A stretch of DNA of 64,000 bases from Falsiroseomonas ponticola (GTDB lineage Bacteria > Pseudomonadota > Alphaproteobacteria > Acetobacterales > Acetobacteraceae), in contig NZ_JAERQN010000004.1 of the NCBI RefSeq assembly GCF_016805305.1, positions 248,001 to 312,000 on the forward strand, given 5' to 3'. Position numbers and translations under genes: made by a program. Below the pieces are notes generated by a model. That model saw only the letters and a list, made by a program, of their open reading frames with translations, made no database searches and was not told the origin of the DNA. Of the stretch, positions 1-59,600 are shown one piece after another. The first letter of the stretch is position 1. The number at the start of each line of letters is the position of its first letter.

Positions 1-313
1 GCACGCGGCGGGCGCGGGAATCGGCATCCGGCACCGCGAGGCCGAGGGTGACGTTGGCGAGCACGCGTTCCCAGGGCAGCAGGCGGCTGTCCTGGAACAG
101 GATGGCCTTGTTGCGCGGCGCCTCCACCGTGCCGCCACCGGCCACGCCCTCATCGAGGCCCGCGATGGCCCGCAGCAGCGTGGATTTGCCGCAGCCGCTG
201 CGGCCGATCAGCGCCACGAACTCCCCGGGCTGGAGGTCGAGGTCGATCTCCTCCAGCACCACGCGGCCGGCGAAGGCGCGGGTCAGCGCCTCGATCCTCA
301 TGGCCTGCGTCAT
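1..313 (-). CDS. ABC transporter ATP-binding protein, sulfonate/nitrate/taurine type (partial)
   Basis: The first 104 residues of an ABC ATPase can be read before the gene leaves the window at its left edge. Walker A is GRSGCGKST at residues 37-45, and the Q-loop is [12 protein letters not shown], a form typical of SsuB/TauB/NrtD proteins. The ATG overlaps the stop of the permease gene (ATGA), so the two are translationally coupled. It is the energy-coupling subunit for the permease and binding protein encoded just upstream. The signature motif and Walker B lie outside the window. The substrate is inferred from the family only; an organosulfur compound is favoured by the Cys-Cys leader peptide at the head of the operon. 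Confidence 0.93.
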
Positions 314-1191
314 GTGCCGAGCGCCTTGCGCCAGGACAGCGCGCGGCGTTCCACCGCCCGCACCGCCATGTCCGACGCCAGGCCCAGCACGGCATAGACC
401 GCGAGGCCGACGACGATGACATCCGTCTGCCCGTAGTCCCGGGCGCGGTTCATCAGGTAGCCGATGCCCTCCGTCGTGTTGATCTGTTCCAGCACCACCA
501 GCGCGGTCCAGCAGGCCGTGACCGCCAGGCGCAGCCCCGTGAAGAAGCCCGGCAGCGCGCCTGGCAGCGCCACGCGCCGCAGGAATTCCGCCCGGCCGAG
601 CCCCACGGAGCGCGCCAGTTCCACGAAGCGCAAATCGATGCCCCGCAGCGCCGCATGGGTGTTGATGTAGACGGGGACGAGGACGGAGGTCGCGATCAGG
701 GCGATCTTCATCGCCTCCCCGATCCCGAGCCAGAGGATCGCCAGCGGGATCAGCGCGAGCGTCGGGATGGCGCGCTTCACCTGCACGACGCCGTCGATCG
801 AGGCCTCGCCGAGGCGCGTCAGGCCCGAGGCCAGCGCCAGCACCAGCCCCGCCACGACGCCGATGCCGAGCCCGAGCCAGGCGCGCTGGGCGGAGGCGAG
901 GAAATGCTCCTGCAGGGTGCCGGCCTGGAGCATGGCGAAGCCGGTGGTGACGGCGGTGGAGGGCGCGGCCAGCAGGCGGGGCGAGAGCAGGCCCGTCTGC
1001 GAGGCCGCTTCCCACACCAGCACCAGCACCAGCGGGCCGAACAGGATGCCCCAGGCGGGCAGGCGCCGCGGCGCCAGCACCGGCGCGGCGGGGCGCGCGG
1101 ATCGCGGCCGGGGCGGATCGATCGGCAGCATCACATCCGCGACCGAGATCAGTTCATAGGTCGCCCGGTCGCTGGTGGAATGGCCGCTCAT
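310..1191 (-). CDS. ABC transporter permease, sulfonate/nitrate/taurine type
   Basis: 293-aa inner-membrane permease (BPD_transp_1 family). After a proline- and arginine-rich cytoplasmic head of about 45 residues come about six hydrophobic helices. The cytoplasmic EAA loop is visible as [19 protein letters not shown], with the usual G and the LP end. I chose the ATG at 1191 because it overlaps the binding-protein stop (ATGA) and gives the usual family length; the frame stays open further upstream, but that part is a shadow of the binding-protein gene. It lies between the binding-protein and ATPase genes, completing an SsuABC/TauABC-like importer. Confidence 0.93.
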
Positions 1192-2204
1192 GCCGCGTAC
1201 TCGGCGATCACGGCGTCGAAGCGCAGGTCGAACTCCTCCCGCGCATCCAGGCGGCGGGGGATGTCGCCGGCGGCGTGGATCAGGTCGATCGTCGCCTGGT
1301 GCGGGGCGATGAGCGTGGAGAGCGCGGGAAAGCGGTACTCGCCCTCCGATGCCTCGATGGCGCGGCCATCCTCCGGCCGCAGATTCTGCAGGCGCACGTA
1401 ATAGGCCTGCACCCATTCCTCCGGCCGCGCCTTGGACCAGCGGCTGGCGGCGATCCAGCGGATGACGAAGTCCCGCAGCGCCGCGGCCTTGGCCGGGTCA
1501 TCCAGCGCGCGGCCGCTGGCATAGAGGTAGCTGAGCCGCTTCGGCAGATCGGCATACTGGTCCGCCGGCAGGGCGGAGGCGCCGCGATCCGCCCATTGCG
1601 CGAGGTAGCGGGAGAAATGCGGCTCGTTCAGCGGCGCGATATCCACCTGCCCGCCGCGCACCGCATCGGGGAAGTCCGAGACGCGGAGCGGCACGAGGCG
1701 AACGTCGCGCCGCGTCAGCCCCGCCAGTTGCAGAGCCCGCAGCACGAAGGGCTGGCGGCCCGTACCCTCGGCATAGGCGATGCGCCTGCCCGCGAAATCC
1801 TTGAGCGTCGTCACCGACAGCCCCGGGCGCACCGCGAATTTGTAGTCGGGCTCGGTGGAGGCGCGGGCCGCGATGACGGGAATGCGCTCCCCGGCCGCAT
1901 GGGCCTGGATCGGCGGCGTGTTGCCGACGATGCCGAGGTCGAGCGCACCGGCGCGGAACGCCTCCAGGATGGCGGGGCCGCCGAGGAAATTGGCGTAGCT
2001 CACCTGGGCGGCCAGGCGGCCATGCTCGCCGGAGGCCTGCATCATGGTCTGCAGCGCCTGGTTCTGGTCGGCCGCGACCAGCCGCGTGCCGGGCGGCACC
2101 CGGCGCGGCAGCTCGCTCGCCAGGGCCGGAGACGCCAGCAGCGCGGGCAGCAGGAAGGTCGCACGGCGGCCGAGCACGGCGCGCCGGGATGGCACGAGAG
2201 GCAT
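1188..2204 (-). CDS. ABC transporter substrate-binding protein, SsuA/NrtA-like
   Basis: 338-aa periplasmic binding protein. The N-terminus has several arginines (SRRAVLGRRATFLL) followed by an Ala-rich segment ending SPALA, a Tat- or Sec-type export signal. The mature part shows the NMT1/SsuA layout: an early G-rich stretch, DLGIVGNTPPIQA (the ligand-site loop of this family), then DFAGRRIAYAEGTGRQPFVLRAL and a second lobe with QVDIAPLNEP. It is the first full-length gene of the transporter operon and overlaps the permease by 4 nt. A sulfonate or a related organosulfur compound is the likeliest ligand, but nitrate or other anion binders share this fold. Confidence 0.9.
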   Translation of the reverse strand: MPLVPSRRAVLGRRATFLLPALLASPALASELPRRVPPGTRLVAADQNQALQTMMQASGEHGRLAAQVSYANFLGGPAILEAFRAGALDLGIVGNTPPIQAHAAGERIPVIAARASTEPDYKFAVRPGLSVTTLKDFAGRRIAYAEGTGRQPFVLRALQLAGLTRRDVRLVPLRVSDFPDAVRGGQVDIAPLNEPHFSRYLAQWADRGASALPADQYADLPKRLSYLYASGRALDDPAKAAALRDFVIRWIAASRWSKARPEEWVQAYYVRLQNLRPEDGRAIEASEGEYRFPALSTLIAPHQATIDLIHAAGDIPRRLDAREEFDLRFDAVIAEYAA

Positions 2205-2235
2205 GAAGGATGGGTCCTTGCGCGGAGGGACGGCG

Positions 2236-2250
2236 CGGCCCGGCGGGCCG
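2236..2250 (-). other. GC hairpin between leader ORF and binding-protein gene
   Basis: CGGCCC-GGC-GGGCCG forms a 6-bp perfect stem with a 3-nt loop. It lies 20 nt after the stop of the Cys-Cys leader ORF and 31 nt before the binding-protein start. No U-run follows on the minus strand, so it is not a classical intrinsic terminator. It may be part of an attenuator or a block to Rho, or may simply reflect high GC. Confidence 0.3.
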
Positions 2251-2269
2251 GGCGGAAGGAGGCGGCGGA

Positions 2270-2302
2270 TCAGCCCCGACAGCAGGGCAGGATGGGCGGC
2301 AT
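2270..2302 (-). CDS. Putative 10-aa Cys-Cys leader peptide
   Basis: A mini-ORF, ATG to TGA, encodes MPPILPCCRG. It lies 65 nt upstream of the binding-protein gene of the sulfonate-type ABC operon and on the same strand. Two adjacent cysteine codons just before the stop, followed by a GC hairpin, are what a translation-dependent sulfur or cysteine attenuator would look like. Cys-rich leader peptides before sulfur operons are known in other bacteria, notably actinobacteria. I see no strong Shine-Dalgarno sequence, so translation is not proven, and a 33-nt ORF can arise by chance. Confidence 0.4.
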   Translation of the reverse strand: MPPILPCCRG

Positions 2303-2364
2303 GGGGCGCTCCTCTGCGGCGGGCGGATCGTGCGATCAGCGGTCGCGCAGAGTCAATAAGCCCG

Positions 2365-2475: not shown

Positions 2476-4365
2476 ATGCCCGCCCATCCGCTCGACCCGC
2501 TGACCCCCGCGGAAATCCGCCAGGCCGCCGCGCTGGTCCGCGCCGCGCATGATCTGGGCGCGGGCATGATGTTCGAGACGATCAGCCTGCACGAACCCGC
2601 CAAGGCCGAACTGCGCGGCGATGCCCCGCCGCCCCGCCGCGCCTTCGTCTGCGCCTTCGACCGCACCGATGGCCGGGTGTTCGAGGCGGTGGCGGACCTG
2701 ACCGCCGGCGCCATCCTGTCCTGGACGCCGATGCCGGGGGTGCGGCCGCGCATCCTGTTCGACGATATCGAGCTGGTGGGCCGCGTCGCCCGCGCCGATC
2801 CCGGTTTCCAGGCGGCGCTGGCGCGGCGCGGCATCACCGATATCGGCCTGGTCCAGGTCGATCCCTGGTCCGCCGGCAATTACGGCCTGCCGGATGAGGA
2901 AGGGCGGCGCCTGTCACACACCTTCTGCTGGCTCCGCACCTCTCCCGACGACAATGCCTATGCGCACCCCATCGAGGGTCTCTGCGCCGTCATCGACCTC
3001 GACCGCGCCTCGGTGCTGCGGATCGATGACCATGGCGAGGCGCCGATCCCGATGCGCGACGTGAACTACGCCGCGAAGTTCCGGCAGACCTTCCGCGACG
3101 ACATCAAGCCGCTGGAGATCATCCAGCCGGAGGGCGCCTCCTTCACCGTCGAGGGCCAGGAGGTTCGCTGGCAGAAATGGCGCTTCCGGGTCGGCTTCAA
3201 CGCGCGGGAAGGCCTGGTGCTGCATGCCCTGGCCTATGAGGACCAGGGGCGGCTGCGCCCGGTGATGCATCGCGGCGCGCTGTCGGAGATGGTGGTGCCC
3301 TACGCCCATCCCGGCGGCGGGCATTATCGCAAGAACGCCTTCGATGTCGGCGAATACGGCATCGGCGTGCTGGCCAATTCACTGACGCTGGGCTGCGATT
3401 GCCTGGGCGCCATCCACTACTTCGATGGCTGGCTGGCCGACAGCAAGGGCGATCCCTACTGCATCCGCAACGCCATCTGCCTGCATGAGGAGGATCACGG
3501 CATCCTCTGGAAGCACACGGATCTCCACACCGGCAAGGTGGAGGTACGGCGCGCGCGGCGGCTGGTGCTGTCCTCCATCTCCACCATCGGCAACTACGAA
3601 TACGGGTCCTTCTGGTACCTGCACCAGGACGGCTCCATCCACTTCGAGATCAAGGCCACCGGCATCATGAACACCGCCGGCCTCAAGCCCGGGGAGGAGC
3701 CGCGCTTCGGCACCATGGTGGCACCTGGCGTCTATGCGCATCTGCACCAGCACGTCTTCGCCATGCGCCTCGACATGGATGTCGATGGGGAAGCGAACCG
3801 CGTCGTGGAGGTGGACACCGTCGCGCTGCCGATGGGGCCGGAGAACCCGCATGGCAACGCCTTCGTGCTGCGGGAGACGGTGCTGGAGAGCGAGTTGCGC
3901 GCGCAGCGCAACGTCGATTTCCACGCCATGCGCGGCTGGCGGGTGGAAAGCGCCACGGCGCGCAACGCCATGGGCCGCCCGACCGCCTATCGCCTGGTGG
4001 CGCAGAATCCCCTGCCCACCTTCTCCGCCCCCGAGGCCAGCGTCACCCGCCGCGCCGCCTTCATGACGAAACAGCTCTGGGTCACCGCCTTCGAGCCCGA
4101 GGAGATGTTCGCCGCCGGCCGCTACCCCAACCAATCCGCGGGCGGGGATGGGTTGCCGGCCTGGACGGCGGCGGATCGGCCGCTGGTCGATGCCGACCTC
4201 GTCCTCTGGCACTGCTTCGGCCTGCACCACATCCCGCGGCCCGAGGATTTCCCGGTGCAGCCCGTCATCACCGCCGGCTTCGCCCTGCACCCCGAGGGCT
4301 TCTTCGACGAGAATCCGGCGCTGGACGTGCCCCCCAGCCGCAGCGCGAAGAGCTGCTGCGTCTGA
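2476..4365 (+). CDS. Primary (copper/topaquinone) amine oxidase
   Basis: 629-aa quinoprotein that oxidises a primary amine to the aldehyde, releasing ammonia and hydrogen peroxide. All catalytic hallmarks are present. The cofactor motif N373-Y374-E375-Y376 contains the tyrosine that becomes topaquinone. The catalytic base is D290 in NAFDVGEYG. The copper ligands are H424 and H426 (HLHQH) and H585 (GLHHIPRPEDFP). There is no signal peptide, and the length matches the cytosolic AGAO/phenethylamine oxidase group. The C-terminus ends in two cysteines, KSCCV. The aminotransferase gene follows on the same strand, suggesting a role in using amines as nitrogen or carbon source. The exact amine cannot be read from sequence. 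Confidence 0.96.
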   Translation: MPAHPLDPLTPAEIRQAAALVRAAHDLGAGMMFETISLHEPAKAELRGDAPPPRRAFVCAFDRTDGRVFEAVADLTAGAILSWTPMPGVRPRILFDDIELVGRVARADPGFQAALARRGITDIGLVQVDPWSAGNYGLPDEEGRRLSHTFCWLRTSPDDNAYAHPIEGLCAVIDLDRASVLRIDDHGEAPIPMRDVNYAAKFRQTFRDDIKPLEIIQPEGASFTVEGQEVRWQKWRFRVGFNAREGLVLHALAYEDQGRLRPVMHRGALSEMVVPYAHPGGGHYRKNAFDVGEYGIGVLANSLTLGCDCLGAIHYFDGWLADSKGDPYCIRNAICLHEEDHGILWKHTDLHTGKVEVRRARRLVLSSISTIGNYEYGSFWYLHQDGSIHFEIKATGIMNTAGLKPGEEPRFGTMVAPGVYAHLHQHVFAMRLDMDVDGEANRVVEVDTVALPMGPENPHGNAFVLRETVLESELRAQRNVDFHAMRGWRVESATARNAMGRPTAYRLVAQNPLPTFSAPEASVTRRAAFMTKQLWVTAFEPEEMFAAGRYPNQSAGGDGLPAWTAADRPLVDADLVLWHCFGLHHIPRPEDFPVQPVITAGFALHPEGFFDENPALDVPPSRSAKSCCV

Positions 4366-54801: not shown

Positions 54802-56175
54802 ATGCCTGCGACGCGAAAGATCAGGCTCGGCGTCTCCATGGTCGGCATGGGGTATCACCTCGCCGCCTGGCGCCATCCCGACGCCTCCGCTGGCGGCAAC
54901 ATGGAATTGCAGCACTTCGTGAAGACGACGCAGGTGGCGGAGCGCGGGCTGCTCGACATGGCCTTCCTCGCCGATGGCGTCGGCATCCGTTTCAACGACC
55001 GTCCGCCCGGCGCGCTCAGCCACACCTGCAAGAACGTGCAGTTCGAGCCGCTGACGCTGCTTTCCGCGCTGGCCATGGTGACGGAGCGCGTGGGCCTCGT
55101 CGCCACCGCCTCCACCACCTACAACGAGCCCTATCACGTCGCGCGGAAATTCGCCTCGCTCGACCATATCAGCGGCGGGCGCGCGGGCTGGAACGTGGTG
55201 ACCAGCGCGACCGACATGGAGGCGCAGAATTTCGGGCTGGATGGCGCGCCGGCCAAGGGCGGACGCTACGACCGCGCCATCGAATTCGTCGACGTCGTGC
55301 GCGGCTTGTGGGAGTCCTGGGAGGATGATGCCTTCGTCCGGGACAAGGCGAGCGGCGTCAACTACGACCCCGCCAAGCTGCACATCCTGAACCACCAGGG
55401 CGAGCATTTCCGCGTCCGCGGGCCGCTCAATGTGCAGCGCACGCCGCAGGGCCGCCCGATCATCGTGCAGGCCGGTGCCAGCGACCAGGGACGCGAGTTG
55501 GCCGCCGCCACCGCCGATGTCGTCTACGCCGCGGCGCAGACGCTGGAGGATGCGCGCGCCTACTACCAGGATGTGAAGCGCCGCATGCCCCGCTACGGGC
55601 GCCATCCCGACCAGTTGAAGATCATGCCGGGCCTGATGGCCGTGCCCGGCCGCACGCGGCAGGAGGCGCAGGATCGCTACCAGGTGCTGCAGGAACTGGT
55701 GCAGCCCGTGGTCGGGCTCGGCGCTCTCGCCAACTACCTCGGTGATCTCTCCGACCATGACCTCGACGGCCCGCTGCCGGAGCCGAAGGACCGGCGCGAC
55801 CACAGCCGCGGCCAGATCTTCATCGACATGGCGCGGCGCAACAACCTGACGATCCGCCAGCTCTACCTCTCCATCGCCGGCGGCAACGGCCACCGCACCG
55901 TCATCGGCACGCCCGCCGATATCGTCGACGCCATGGAGGAGTGGTTCCACGGCGAGGCCGCCGATGGCTTCAACATCCTGCCGACCTGGCTGCCAGGCGG
56001 GCTCGAGGAAGTCGTGGAGATGGTGGTGCCGGAGATGCAGCGGCGCGGCCTCTACCGCACCGCCTATGAAGGCCGCACCCTGCGGGAGAATCTCGGCCTC
56101 GCCTATCCCGAACACCCCGCCGCCGCCGCCCGCCGTGCCGCCCTGTCACAAGCCCTCGGGAGTGCCGCTGAATGA
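54802..56175 (+). CDS. LLM-class FMN-dependent monooxygenase (NtaA/SnaA/DszA family)
   Basis: 457-aa flavin monooxygenase of the bacterial luciferase fold, in the group of nitrilotriacetate, dibenzothiophene-sulfone and pristinamycin monooxygenases. Motifs are FLADGVGIRF, TASTTYNEPYHVARKFASLD, HISGGRAGWNVVTSATDMEA, in part, and RGPLNVQRTPQGRPIIVQAG. It needs reduced FMN from a separate reductase, not encoded nearby. GGAGGG lies before the ATG. It overlaps the orphan binding-protein gene by 4 nt. Its paralogue is two genes downstream. Likely job: oxidative C-S or C-N cleavage of an imported compound. Confidence 0.94.
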   Translation: MPATRKIRLGVSMVGMGYHLAAWRHPDASAGGNMELQHFVKTTQVAERGLLDMAFLADGVGIRFNDRPPGALSHTCKNVQFEPLTLLSALAMVTERVGLVATASTTYNEPYHVARKFASLDHISGGRAGWNVVTSATDMEAQNFGLDGAPAKGGRYDRAIEFVDVVRGLWESWEDDAFVRDKASGVNYDPAKLHILNHQGEHFRVRGPLNVQRTPQGRPIIVQAGASDQGRELAAATADVVYAAAQTLEDARAYYQDVKRRMPRYGRHPDQLKIMPGLMAVPGRTRQEAQDRYQVLQELVQPVVGLGALANYLGDLSDHDLDGPLPEPKDRRDHSRGQIFIDMARRNNLTIRQLYLSIAGGNGHRTVIGTPADIVDAMEEWFHGEAADGFNILPTWLPGGLEEVVEMVVPEMQRRGLYRTAYEGRTLRENLGLAYPEHPAAAARRAALSQALGSAAE

Positions 56176-57768: not shown

Positions 57769-59130
57769 ATGACCACCAAGAAGAAACAGCTGAAGCTCGG
57801 CGCCTTCCTCAGCGTGCCGGGCAACCACCTGGCGGGCTGGCGCCACCCCGATGCCGTGCCCGAATACGACATGGATTTCGCGCTCTACATGCGCCTGGCC
57901 CAGACGGCGGAGCGCGCGCTCTACGACACCATCTTCTTCCAGGACACGGTCGCGGTCGGCGGCAGTGATGCGCTGAAGGCCGGCGACCTGACGCGCACGC
58001 GGCTGTCGCGCATCGTCAAGCTGGAACCCACCGCCACGCTCGCGGCGCTGGCCGTCGGCACGAAGAACATCGGCCTGATCGCCACGGCGACGACGACCTT
58101 CAACGAGCCCTACAACATCGCCCGCCGCTTCTCGACCATCGACCACATCAGCGGCGGCCGCTGCGGCTGGAACCTGGTGACCTCCCAGATCGAGGACGAG
58201 GCCGGCAACTTCAACCTCGACACCCATGTGGACCACGCGCTGCGCTACGAACGCGCGATCGAGTTCTATGAGGTCGTCGCCGGGCTCTGGGATTCCTGGG
58301 AACACGACGCCTTCCTGCGGGACAAGGAAAGCGGCGTCTGGTTCGACCGGGAGAAGATGCATTTCCTCGACCACCACGGGAAGTACTTCAACGTGCGCGG
58401 CCCGCTGAACTCGCCGCGCACGCCGCAGGGAAGGCCCGTGGTGGCGCAGGCCGGCTCCTCCGAACCGGGCCGCGAACTCGCCGCCCGCACCGCCGACATC
58501 GTCTTCACCGCGCAGACGGAGCTGGAGGCCGCGCGCGAGTTCTTCGCCGATGTGAAGGGCCGCACCGCCCGCTACGGCCGCACGCCGGACGACATCAAGA
58601 TCATGCCCGGCATCACCCCCGTCATCGGCCGCACGATGGAGGAGGCGCAGGAGAAGTACGACGCCCTGCAGGCGCTGCTGCCGGACGATGTGGCGCTGGC
58701 CGCGCTGGCCCGCTTCACCCGCGGCATCGACATCTTCAGCTATGATCTGAACGGCCCGATGCCGGACCTGCCGGAGGCCAATTCCGCCAAGTCGCGCCAG
58801 AAGCTGATCATGGACATGGCGAAGAAGCACAACATGACGCTGCGCCAGGTCGCGCGCTCCGTCTCCGCCGCGCAGGGGCATCGCGTGCTGGTCGGCACCG
58901 TGGGCTACATCGCCGACCAGATGCAGGAATGGCTGGAAGCCGATGCCTGCGACGGCTTCAACGTGATCTGCAACTACTACCCCGGGCCCTTCGACGATTT
59001 CGCCAACCAGGTGATCCCGGAACTGCAGCGGCGCGGCATCTTCCGCACGGCCTATGAGGGCAGCACGCTGCGGGAGAATCTCGGCCTGCGCGTGCCGGAG
59101 AACCGCTACACCGCCGCGCGGCGGGGCTAG
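57769..59130 (+). CDS. LLM-class FMN-dependent monooxygenase (NtaA/SnaA/DszA family)
   Basis: 453-aa paralogue of the enzyme at 54802-56175. The N-terminus is LKLGAFLSVPGNHLAGWRHP, then FFQDTVAVGG, TATTTFNEPYNIARRFSTID, HISGGRCGWNLVTSQ and RGPLNSPRTPQGRPVVAQAG. Both share a C-terminal motif, RRGxxRTAYEGxTLRENLGL, but differ in the substrate-side loops, so they may catalyse successive steps or act on related compounds. It shares the CTAG at its stop with the convergent small gene. The required flavin reductase is not in the window. Confidence 0.94.
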   Translation: MTTKKKQLKLGAFLSVPGNHLAGWRHPDAVPEYDMDFALYMRLAQTAERALYDTIFFQDTVAVGGSDALKAGDLTRTRLSRIVKLEPTATLAALAVGTKNIGLIATATTTFNEPYNIARRFSTIDHISGGRCGWNLVTSQIEDEAGNFNLDTHVDHALRYERAIEFYEVVAGLWDSWEHDAFLRDKESGVWFDREKMHFLDHHGKYFNVRGPLNSPRTPQGRPVVAQAGSSEPGRELAARTADIVFTAQTELEAAREFFADVKGRTARYGRTPDDIKIMPGITPVIGRTMEEAQEKYDALQALLPDDVALAALARFTRGIDIFSYDLNGPMPDLPEANSAKSRQKLIMDMAKKHNMTLRQVARSVSAAQGHRVLVGTVGYIADQMQEWLEADACDGFNVICNYYPGPFDDFANQVIPELQRRGIFRTAYEGSTLRENLGLRVPENRYTAARRG

Positions 59131-59527: not shown

Positions 59528-59600
59528 TGCCCCGTACGGGATTCGAACCCGTGTTACAGCCTTGAAAGGGCCGTGTCCTAGGCCTCTAGACGAACGGGAC
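59528..59600 (-). tRNA. tRNA-Glu (anticodon UUC)
   Basis: A 73-nt cloverleaf is readable on the minus strand. The acceptor stem GTCCCGT pairs with ACGGGGC (one G-U at the second pair), discriminator A, with no encoded CCA. The anticodon loop is CTTTCAA, giving UUC for glutamate. The T-loop is TTCGAAT on a 5-bp ACGGG/CCCGT stem. Sequence is close to other alphaproteobacterial tRNA-Glu genes. Nothing suggests use as an integration site: no duplicated 3' end or integrase is nearby. Confidence 0.95.

Follow-up and report, generated by a model that had tools for sequence, protein, structure and literature searches.

A candidate cysteine leader peptide ahead of an organosulfur-type ABC transporter operon in Falsiroseomonas

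Sulfur scavenging in proteobacteria is usually credited to protein regulators. The ssuEADCB and tau operons of enterobacteria, which encode a binding protein, a permease, an ATPase, and an oxygenase for organosulfur compounds, have the proteins CysB and Cbl as their regulators, and to our knowledge no leader peptide is known for either of them. The uORFC-8-2 motif of Rhodobacterales lies before cysS, contains tandem Cys codons, usually residues 14 and 15, and is proposed to act by ribosome-mediated attenuation, with an intrinsic terminator that has a U-run and a first stem that holds the Cys codons (PMC8632094). For actinobacteria, two reports describe leader ORFs with runs of Cys codons and no conserved terminator, before cys and cbs operons, with Rho as one suggested possibility for the mycobacterial cys leaders (PMC1262725), and before cys operons (PMC9094748). 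The cys leaders of M. smegmatis are described as acting by translation attenuation (PMC13236596), and mycobacterial ORFs are called polycysteine and leaderless in the title of a further study (Mol Microbiol 2020 114:93). Among titles and the opening lines of abstracts in the open-licence literature, we recognized no cysteine leader before a sulfonate operon.

The Cys-Cys ORF and its operon

The window analyzed here is a stretch of 64,000 nucleotides (nt) from Falsiroseomonas ponticola. A sequence-only reading had pointed to a Cys-Cys ORF at 2270 to 2302, without naming its strand, and to a binding-protein gene after it, and both are borne out. The ORF reads ATG CCG CCC ATC CTG CCC TGC TGT CGG GGC TGA (MPPILPCCRG and a stop codon) on the minus strand, is led by the Shine-Dalgarno (SD) sequence AGAGGAG, and lies upstream of the operon on the same strand, with its adjacent Cys codons close to the stop codon; 65 nt separate the leader stop from the start of the binding-protein gene at 2204. 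A putative promoter farther upstream was read by eye from an alignment of three genomes, those of the window, of an Acetobacteraceae MAG (locus L046), and of Falsiroseomonas stagni DSM 19981 (locus L047). TTGACT is common to all three, and the −10-like hexamer is CACGAT in the window, CATAAT in L046, and CATGAT in L047; the predicted transcription start, placed by rule, falls at about 2319, 17 nt upstream of the leader ATG. Because a strict consensus scan detected no promoter at TTGACT/CACGAT, the promoter has the status of one that we infer. The MPPILPCCRG ORF itself is real and occupies a 5' position behind this inferred promoter (Table 1).

Table 1. Coordinates of the leader region and of the operon genes in the window
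Feature	Position	Strand	Remarks
Inferred promoter	2327..2356	-	TTGACT (2356-2351), 18 nt, CACGAT (2332-2327)
Shine-Dalgarno AGAGGAG of leader ORF	2309..2315	-	Invariant across three genomes
Leader ORF MPPILPCCRG	2270..2302	-	Peptide identical in L046 and L047; 32-33/33 nt identical
Cys codons TGC TGT of leader ORF	2284-2279	-	Residues 7-8
Spacer, C-rich and G-poor	2205..2269	-	36 C and 16 G in 65 nt; candidate site of Rho loading
GC hairpin GCCCGG/CCGGGC	2238..2253	-	6 bp, no U-run; fold prediction
Conserved block GCCGCGCCGTCCCTCCGCGCAAGGACCC	2212..2239	-	Includes ribosome-binding site AAGGA of binding-protein gene; from alignment
SsuA-like substrate-binding protein	1188..2204	-	338 aa; TIGR01728 102.6 bits, under curated cutoff 163.5
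SsuC-like ABC permease	310..1191	-	Under curated cutoff
SsuB-like ATPase	past window edge (L096)		Operon continuation; under curated cutoff
NtaA/DmoA-family FMN monooxygenase	past window edge (L096)		Operon continuation; TIGR03860 541 bits, cutoff 279.7

The binding protein, the permease, and the ATPase all score under the curated cutoffs of their best NCBIfam families. The organosulfur role that we propose is therefore read from the whole set of protein families, since the combination of SsuA-, SsuC-, and SsuB-like proteins with an NtaA/DmoA-family monooxygenase fits sulfur scavenging, and the gene order is the same in a Terrarubrum plasmid relative. The whole genome holds 14 NtaA/DmoA-family genes above the family cutoff. 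Two further FMN monooxygenase genes of this family lie in the window, at 54829 to 56091 and 57796 to 59079, both on the plus strand (positions converted from contig to window coordinates). The divergent neighbor of the leader, at 2476 to 4365 on the plus strand, encodes a copper amine oxidase (NF008559, 908 bits) with KSCCV at its C terminus. At the gathering threshold, Rfam gave no family match at the leader, and its only match in the window is a tRNA gene at 59528 to 59600 on the minus strand.

The window has 15 small intergenic ORFs led by an SD, of which MPPILPCCRG alone contains Cys-Cys; the intergenic and gene counts rest on 42 frames chosen by our own GC3 rule. When all SD-led ORFs of 5 to 40 codons in the whole window are considered (n = 101), two have CC within their last six residues, the second being the end of the amine oxidase gene, read in frame. 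Cys-Cys occurs once in the 17,625 codons of the 42 window genes, where TGT is a rare codon (6 of 135 Cys codons). The Cys pair of the leader is TGC TGT in the window and TGT TGT in L046.

Conservation and distribution among relatives

A contig scan with the binding protein, which detects close relatives only, returned 11 orthologous loci. L046 and L047, whose binding proteins are 93% and 95% identical to that of the window, carry the same peptide in the same place. None of the nine more distant orthologs (63 to 71% identical; three Bosea, Bradyrhizobium, Microvirga, two Rhizobiales, Cupriavidus, and Advenella) has such an ORF within 500 nt, the one Cys-Cys frame of L048, about 300 nt upstream, having a TTG start, no SD, and CC in mid-peptide. 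No leader was found for the plasmid orthologs in the best 2 of 412 matching records (67.6% and 58.8% identical). A DNA search of 15 genus genomes gave long matches only in the window genome and in G397 and G398, which are the genomes of L046 and L047, and short patches in the others; the downstream gene is found in 3 of these 15 genomes, and the leader in all three. Conservation in relatives, which had been put forward as a check on the ORF, holds within the genus wherever the gene is present but not among the distant orthologs or the plasmid records. A lineage-specific cysteine leader peptide is, on these comparisons, the best reading of the putative leader.

The leaderless orthologous operons L048 to L052 share an upstream element, roughly AAAGAACATTC-TTTGACT-AGAACGAT, around a −35-like TTTGACT. 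It was recognized by eye, lies at most 320 nt upstream of the binding-protein match, and recurs with its first half in L097. Perhaps it is a protein-regulator site used in place of the leader.

All conservation evidence comes from three closely related genomes of one genus, and the three pairs compared (window/L046, window/L047, and L046/L047, the order kept below) are non-independent, with region bounds picked after the alignment was viewed. The leader ORF is identical at 32/33, 33/33, and 32/33 positions. For the remaining intergenic sequence, taken from column 66 up to the ATG of the following gene, the counts are 116/186, 162/186, and 115/186 (binomial, 4e-6, 0.010, and 3e-6). At fourfold sites of the binding-protein gene, 41/203, 40/208, and 53/204 differ, and the binomial chance of the leader identity at this rate is 0.005, 0.0009, and 0.0006. 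In no pair does any of the 121 other 33-column windows of the intergenic alignment equal the leader ORF in identity, and the sole change in the ORF is synonymous, from TGC to TGT (Cys). The identity block breaks off at the leader stop codon. The first 33 nt past it are identical at 17/33, 29/33, and 18/33, and the stretch upstream of the promoter at 25/58, 47/58, and 25/58; these two least conserved flanks alone come to 42/91, 76/91, and 43/91. The promoter stretch is identical at 39/56, 45/56, and 38/56, the SD stretch at 15/18, 18/18, and 15/18, and the last 32 nt ahead of the binding-protein gene at 27/32, 31/32, and 27/32. The block GCCGCGCCGTCCCTCCGCGCAAGGACCC, unlike the 33 nt after the leader stop, is nearly invariant in the three genomes and almost equals the leader ORF in conservation (31/33, 32/33, and 30/33 over 33 columns just ahead of the binding-protein gene), so that the ORF is not the sole element kept in the leader. 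Across these three genomes, the leader ORF is more conserved than its surroundings, with one neighboring block close behind it.

In the leader's own genome, CCRG followed by a stop codon gave 14 matches, against 3 in the reversed control. Five of the 13 other strings are overlapped by long open frames on at least one strand, which is a weak criterion where DNA is GC-rich, and the remaining eight were dismissed by eye; MAAPPSCCRG at L002, with an ATG and a preceding GGAG, was set aside in view of its other frame, which we take to read like the N terminus of an amidohydrolase. Across the family, LPCCRG followed by a stop codon was found in 9 of 397 genomes and never in the control, and the eight other matches lie inside other genes or, on reading, have no leader-like setting. 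The whole-peptide pattern with up to three mismatches was found in 2 of 385 genomes of the class, the second match lying inside a long open frame. With the binding protein as query at 1e-30, a protein search found a match in 1 of 200 genomes of the family, its negatives being weak because only ten candidates were scored per genome. Since G397 and G398 are outside the family and class samples (200, 397, and 385 genomes), those samples say little about the genus.

The search for SsuA-like genes in the F. ponticola genome gave 35 matches, none above the family cutoff, of which 30 have loci. In the stretches screened directly beside the 29 other loci there was neither a CCRG leader nor an SD-led Cys-Cys leader; short Cys-Cys or Cys-x-Cys frames at L020, L030, L031, and L045 have no SD. 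The class sample, to which G397 and G398 do not belong, gave 32 SsuA matches in 142 genomes and 29 new loci, 28 of them usable (L121 has only 27 nt upstream). None of these 28 has an SD-led Cys-Cys ORF, and CC occurs in short frames without an SD at L109, L112, and L123. In the F. ponticola genome, the 1.5 kb upstream of cysS and of each of the 14 NtaA/DmoA-family genes showed no adjoining SD-led Cys-Cys leader. L134, an NtaA/DmoA-family locus, has an SD-led short CC frame more than 1 kb upstream, and at L130, the cysS locus, there is an SD-led short frame that contains Cys-x-Cys but not Cys-Cys; the other loci of this screen gave no hit.

Folding, proposed mechanism, and alternatives

The GC hairpin that had been placed after the ORF can form in all three genomes. 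Folded alone, its stretch gives a GC stem of 6 bp in the window, 5 bp in L046, and 8 bp in L047, while its sequence changes fast; in full-length free folds, the hairpin is predicted in the window and L047 and is unused in L046. In a modeled fold truncated ahead of the next ATG, all three genomes show the stem once a ribosome is placed on the Cys codons. The stem may have been kept despite its changing sequence, although GC-rich DNA forms stems readily and the 131-nt leader taken whole shows no gain in folding over shuffled sequences (z −0.12). As no U-run follows it, the hairpin is not an intrinsic terminator, and no hairpin with a U-run was found between 2100 and 2500. The excess of C over G in the spacer is +20, a value reached by 0.055% of 65-nt windows on the same strand and by 0.66% on the opposite one, and is +14 and +18 in the two relatives. 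This signal is one of base composition only, in which the spacer resembles Rho loading stretches.

We propose that MPPILPCCRG is a translated, cis-acting leader that ties expression of the organosulfur operon to the supply of cysteinyl-tRNA, with Rho as the output. Cys-tRNA sensing with a Rho-dependent output is the most likely reading, and the proposal as stated falls somewhat short of an even chance. From the ORF, SD, local conservation, codon choice, operon content, and C-rich spacer that are observed, we infer that the ORF is translated, that cysteine is the signal and Rho the output, and in which direction the effect runs. A ribosome would begin translation at the transcript's 5' end. Given ample cysteine, it would pass both Cys codons, terminate at UGA, and depart, and the exposed C-rich spacer would then allow Rho to halt transcription ahead of the binding-protein gene. 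With scarce Cys-tRNA, the ribosome would pause on the Cys codons, one of which is the rare UGU, and the operon would be expressed. The Rho step and its direction are the weak part of the proposal, because a ribosome on the Cys codons would shield the mRNA to about the stop codon and leave the spacer uncovered, and because the modeled stall alters the openness of the spacer little (unpaired, 0.47 to 0.45, 0.44 to 0.52, and 0.44 to 0.53). What remains of the cysteine attenuation suggested by the sequence-only reading is the conserved SD-led ORF near a predicted 5' end, the Cys codons by the stop, one of them a rare TGT, and the organosulfur-type operon; an intrinsic terminator and a modeled change at the next SD did not appear.

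A cysteine leader might also have a structural, translational, or mRNA-protecting output, in which the stall would refold the leader, free the next ribosome-binding site, or shield the 5' end from decay. In two of the three genomes, the free leader keeps the next SD mostly paired, the conserved block surrounds it, and the GC stem is possible in all three genomes and used in all three in the shortened fold with a ribosome on the Cys codons; translation attenuation has, moreover, been reported for mycobacterial cys leaders (PMC13236596). However, the modeled stall leaves access to the SD unchanged in all three sequences (unpaired, 0.14 to 0.15 in the window, 0.51 to 0.51 in L046, and 0.10 to 0.11-0.12 in L047), openness around the start codon in L047 falls slightly (0.58 to 0.41-0.47), and pairing of the 5' end with the GCCGCGCCGTCCCTCCGCGCAAGGACCC block is not clearly above that with shuffled blocks, of which fractions of 0.214, 0.06, and 0.231 do as well. 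RNA switch models of the three sequences gave no clear stall-dependent change, and we consider such an output unlikely. The peptide might instead be regulatory without metering cysteine, the nascent PPILPCCRG arresting the ribosome in response to another signal, for example a metal or a thiol-reactive compound at the paired cysteines. That the entire peptide, beyond the Cys codons, is unchanged in the three genomes would suit such an arrest, but ten residues occupy little of the exit tunnel and the organosulfur content of the operon is explained more simply by cysteine supply, which makes this very improbable.

Two further alternatives dispense with the peptide. If the stretch were conserved for its nucleotides, as an RNA element or a DNA operator, the short ORF would be incidental; synonymous sites within the ORF are indeed nearly as conserved as the others, and a second block of the leader, which is non-coding, comes close to this conservation. 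Against this, the conserved stretch takes in an SD as well as the ORF and does not continue past the stop codon, the single substitution falls on a synonymous third position, and Rfam matched nothing here at the gathering threshold, so that we hold it to be quite improbable. Least probable of all is chance, that is, an unselected short ORF common to the three genomes by descent. It would accord with there being three relatives only, with the 13 other CCRG-stop strings of the genome, which look like chance, and with the comparable identity of one neighboring non-coding block, but not with a leader identity above both the rest of the intergenic region and the fourfold sites.

If the Cys-tRNA reading is true, sulfur scavenging would have a second and simple control route in leaders of this kind before organosulfur operons. 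A bolder and rather unlikely proposal is that a patchy, apparently horizontally transferred organosulfur operon gained a new cysteine-meter leader in one Falsiroseomonas lineage, with Rho- rather than hairpin-dependent termination, the 11 distant relatives checked being without the leader. A leader confined to one lineage of a scattered operon would, if true, open the birth of an attenuator to comparative study.

Comparison with known leaders

The operon resembles ssuEADCB and tau in encoding a binding protein, a permease, an ATPase, and an oxygenase. In contrast to a classical terminator/antiterminator attenuator, its leader has a hairpin and no U-run. As uORFC-8-2 shows, tandem-Cys leaders are already known in alphaproteobacteria, and here the target, the Cys position, and the terminator differ. 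Both are short alphaproteobacterial ORFs with two tandem Cys codons, and the Cys codons lie within a stem, predicted for the window (2288-2273) and for L047, as they do in the first stem of uORFC-8-2. The target here is an organosulfur-type ABC operon and not cysS, the Cys codons are at positions 7 and 8, and the U-run is absent; the different target, the different Cys position, and the missing terminator place the leader outside uORFC-8-2. With the actinobacterial cys and cbs leaders, it shares a Cys run near the stop ahead of a sulfur operon and the lack of a conserved terminator hairpin, and it differs from them in phylum, in having two Cys and a strong SD, and in its target, which is a cys or cbs gene there. 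Unlike the mycobacterial ORFs that a title calls leaderless, it has the invariant SD AGAGGAG and a predicted start site 17 nt upstream. If our inference is right, the leader would work like the known cysteine leaders.
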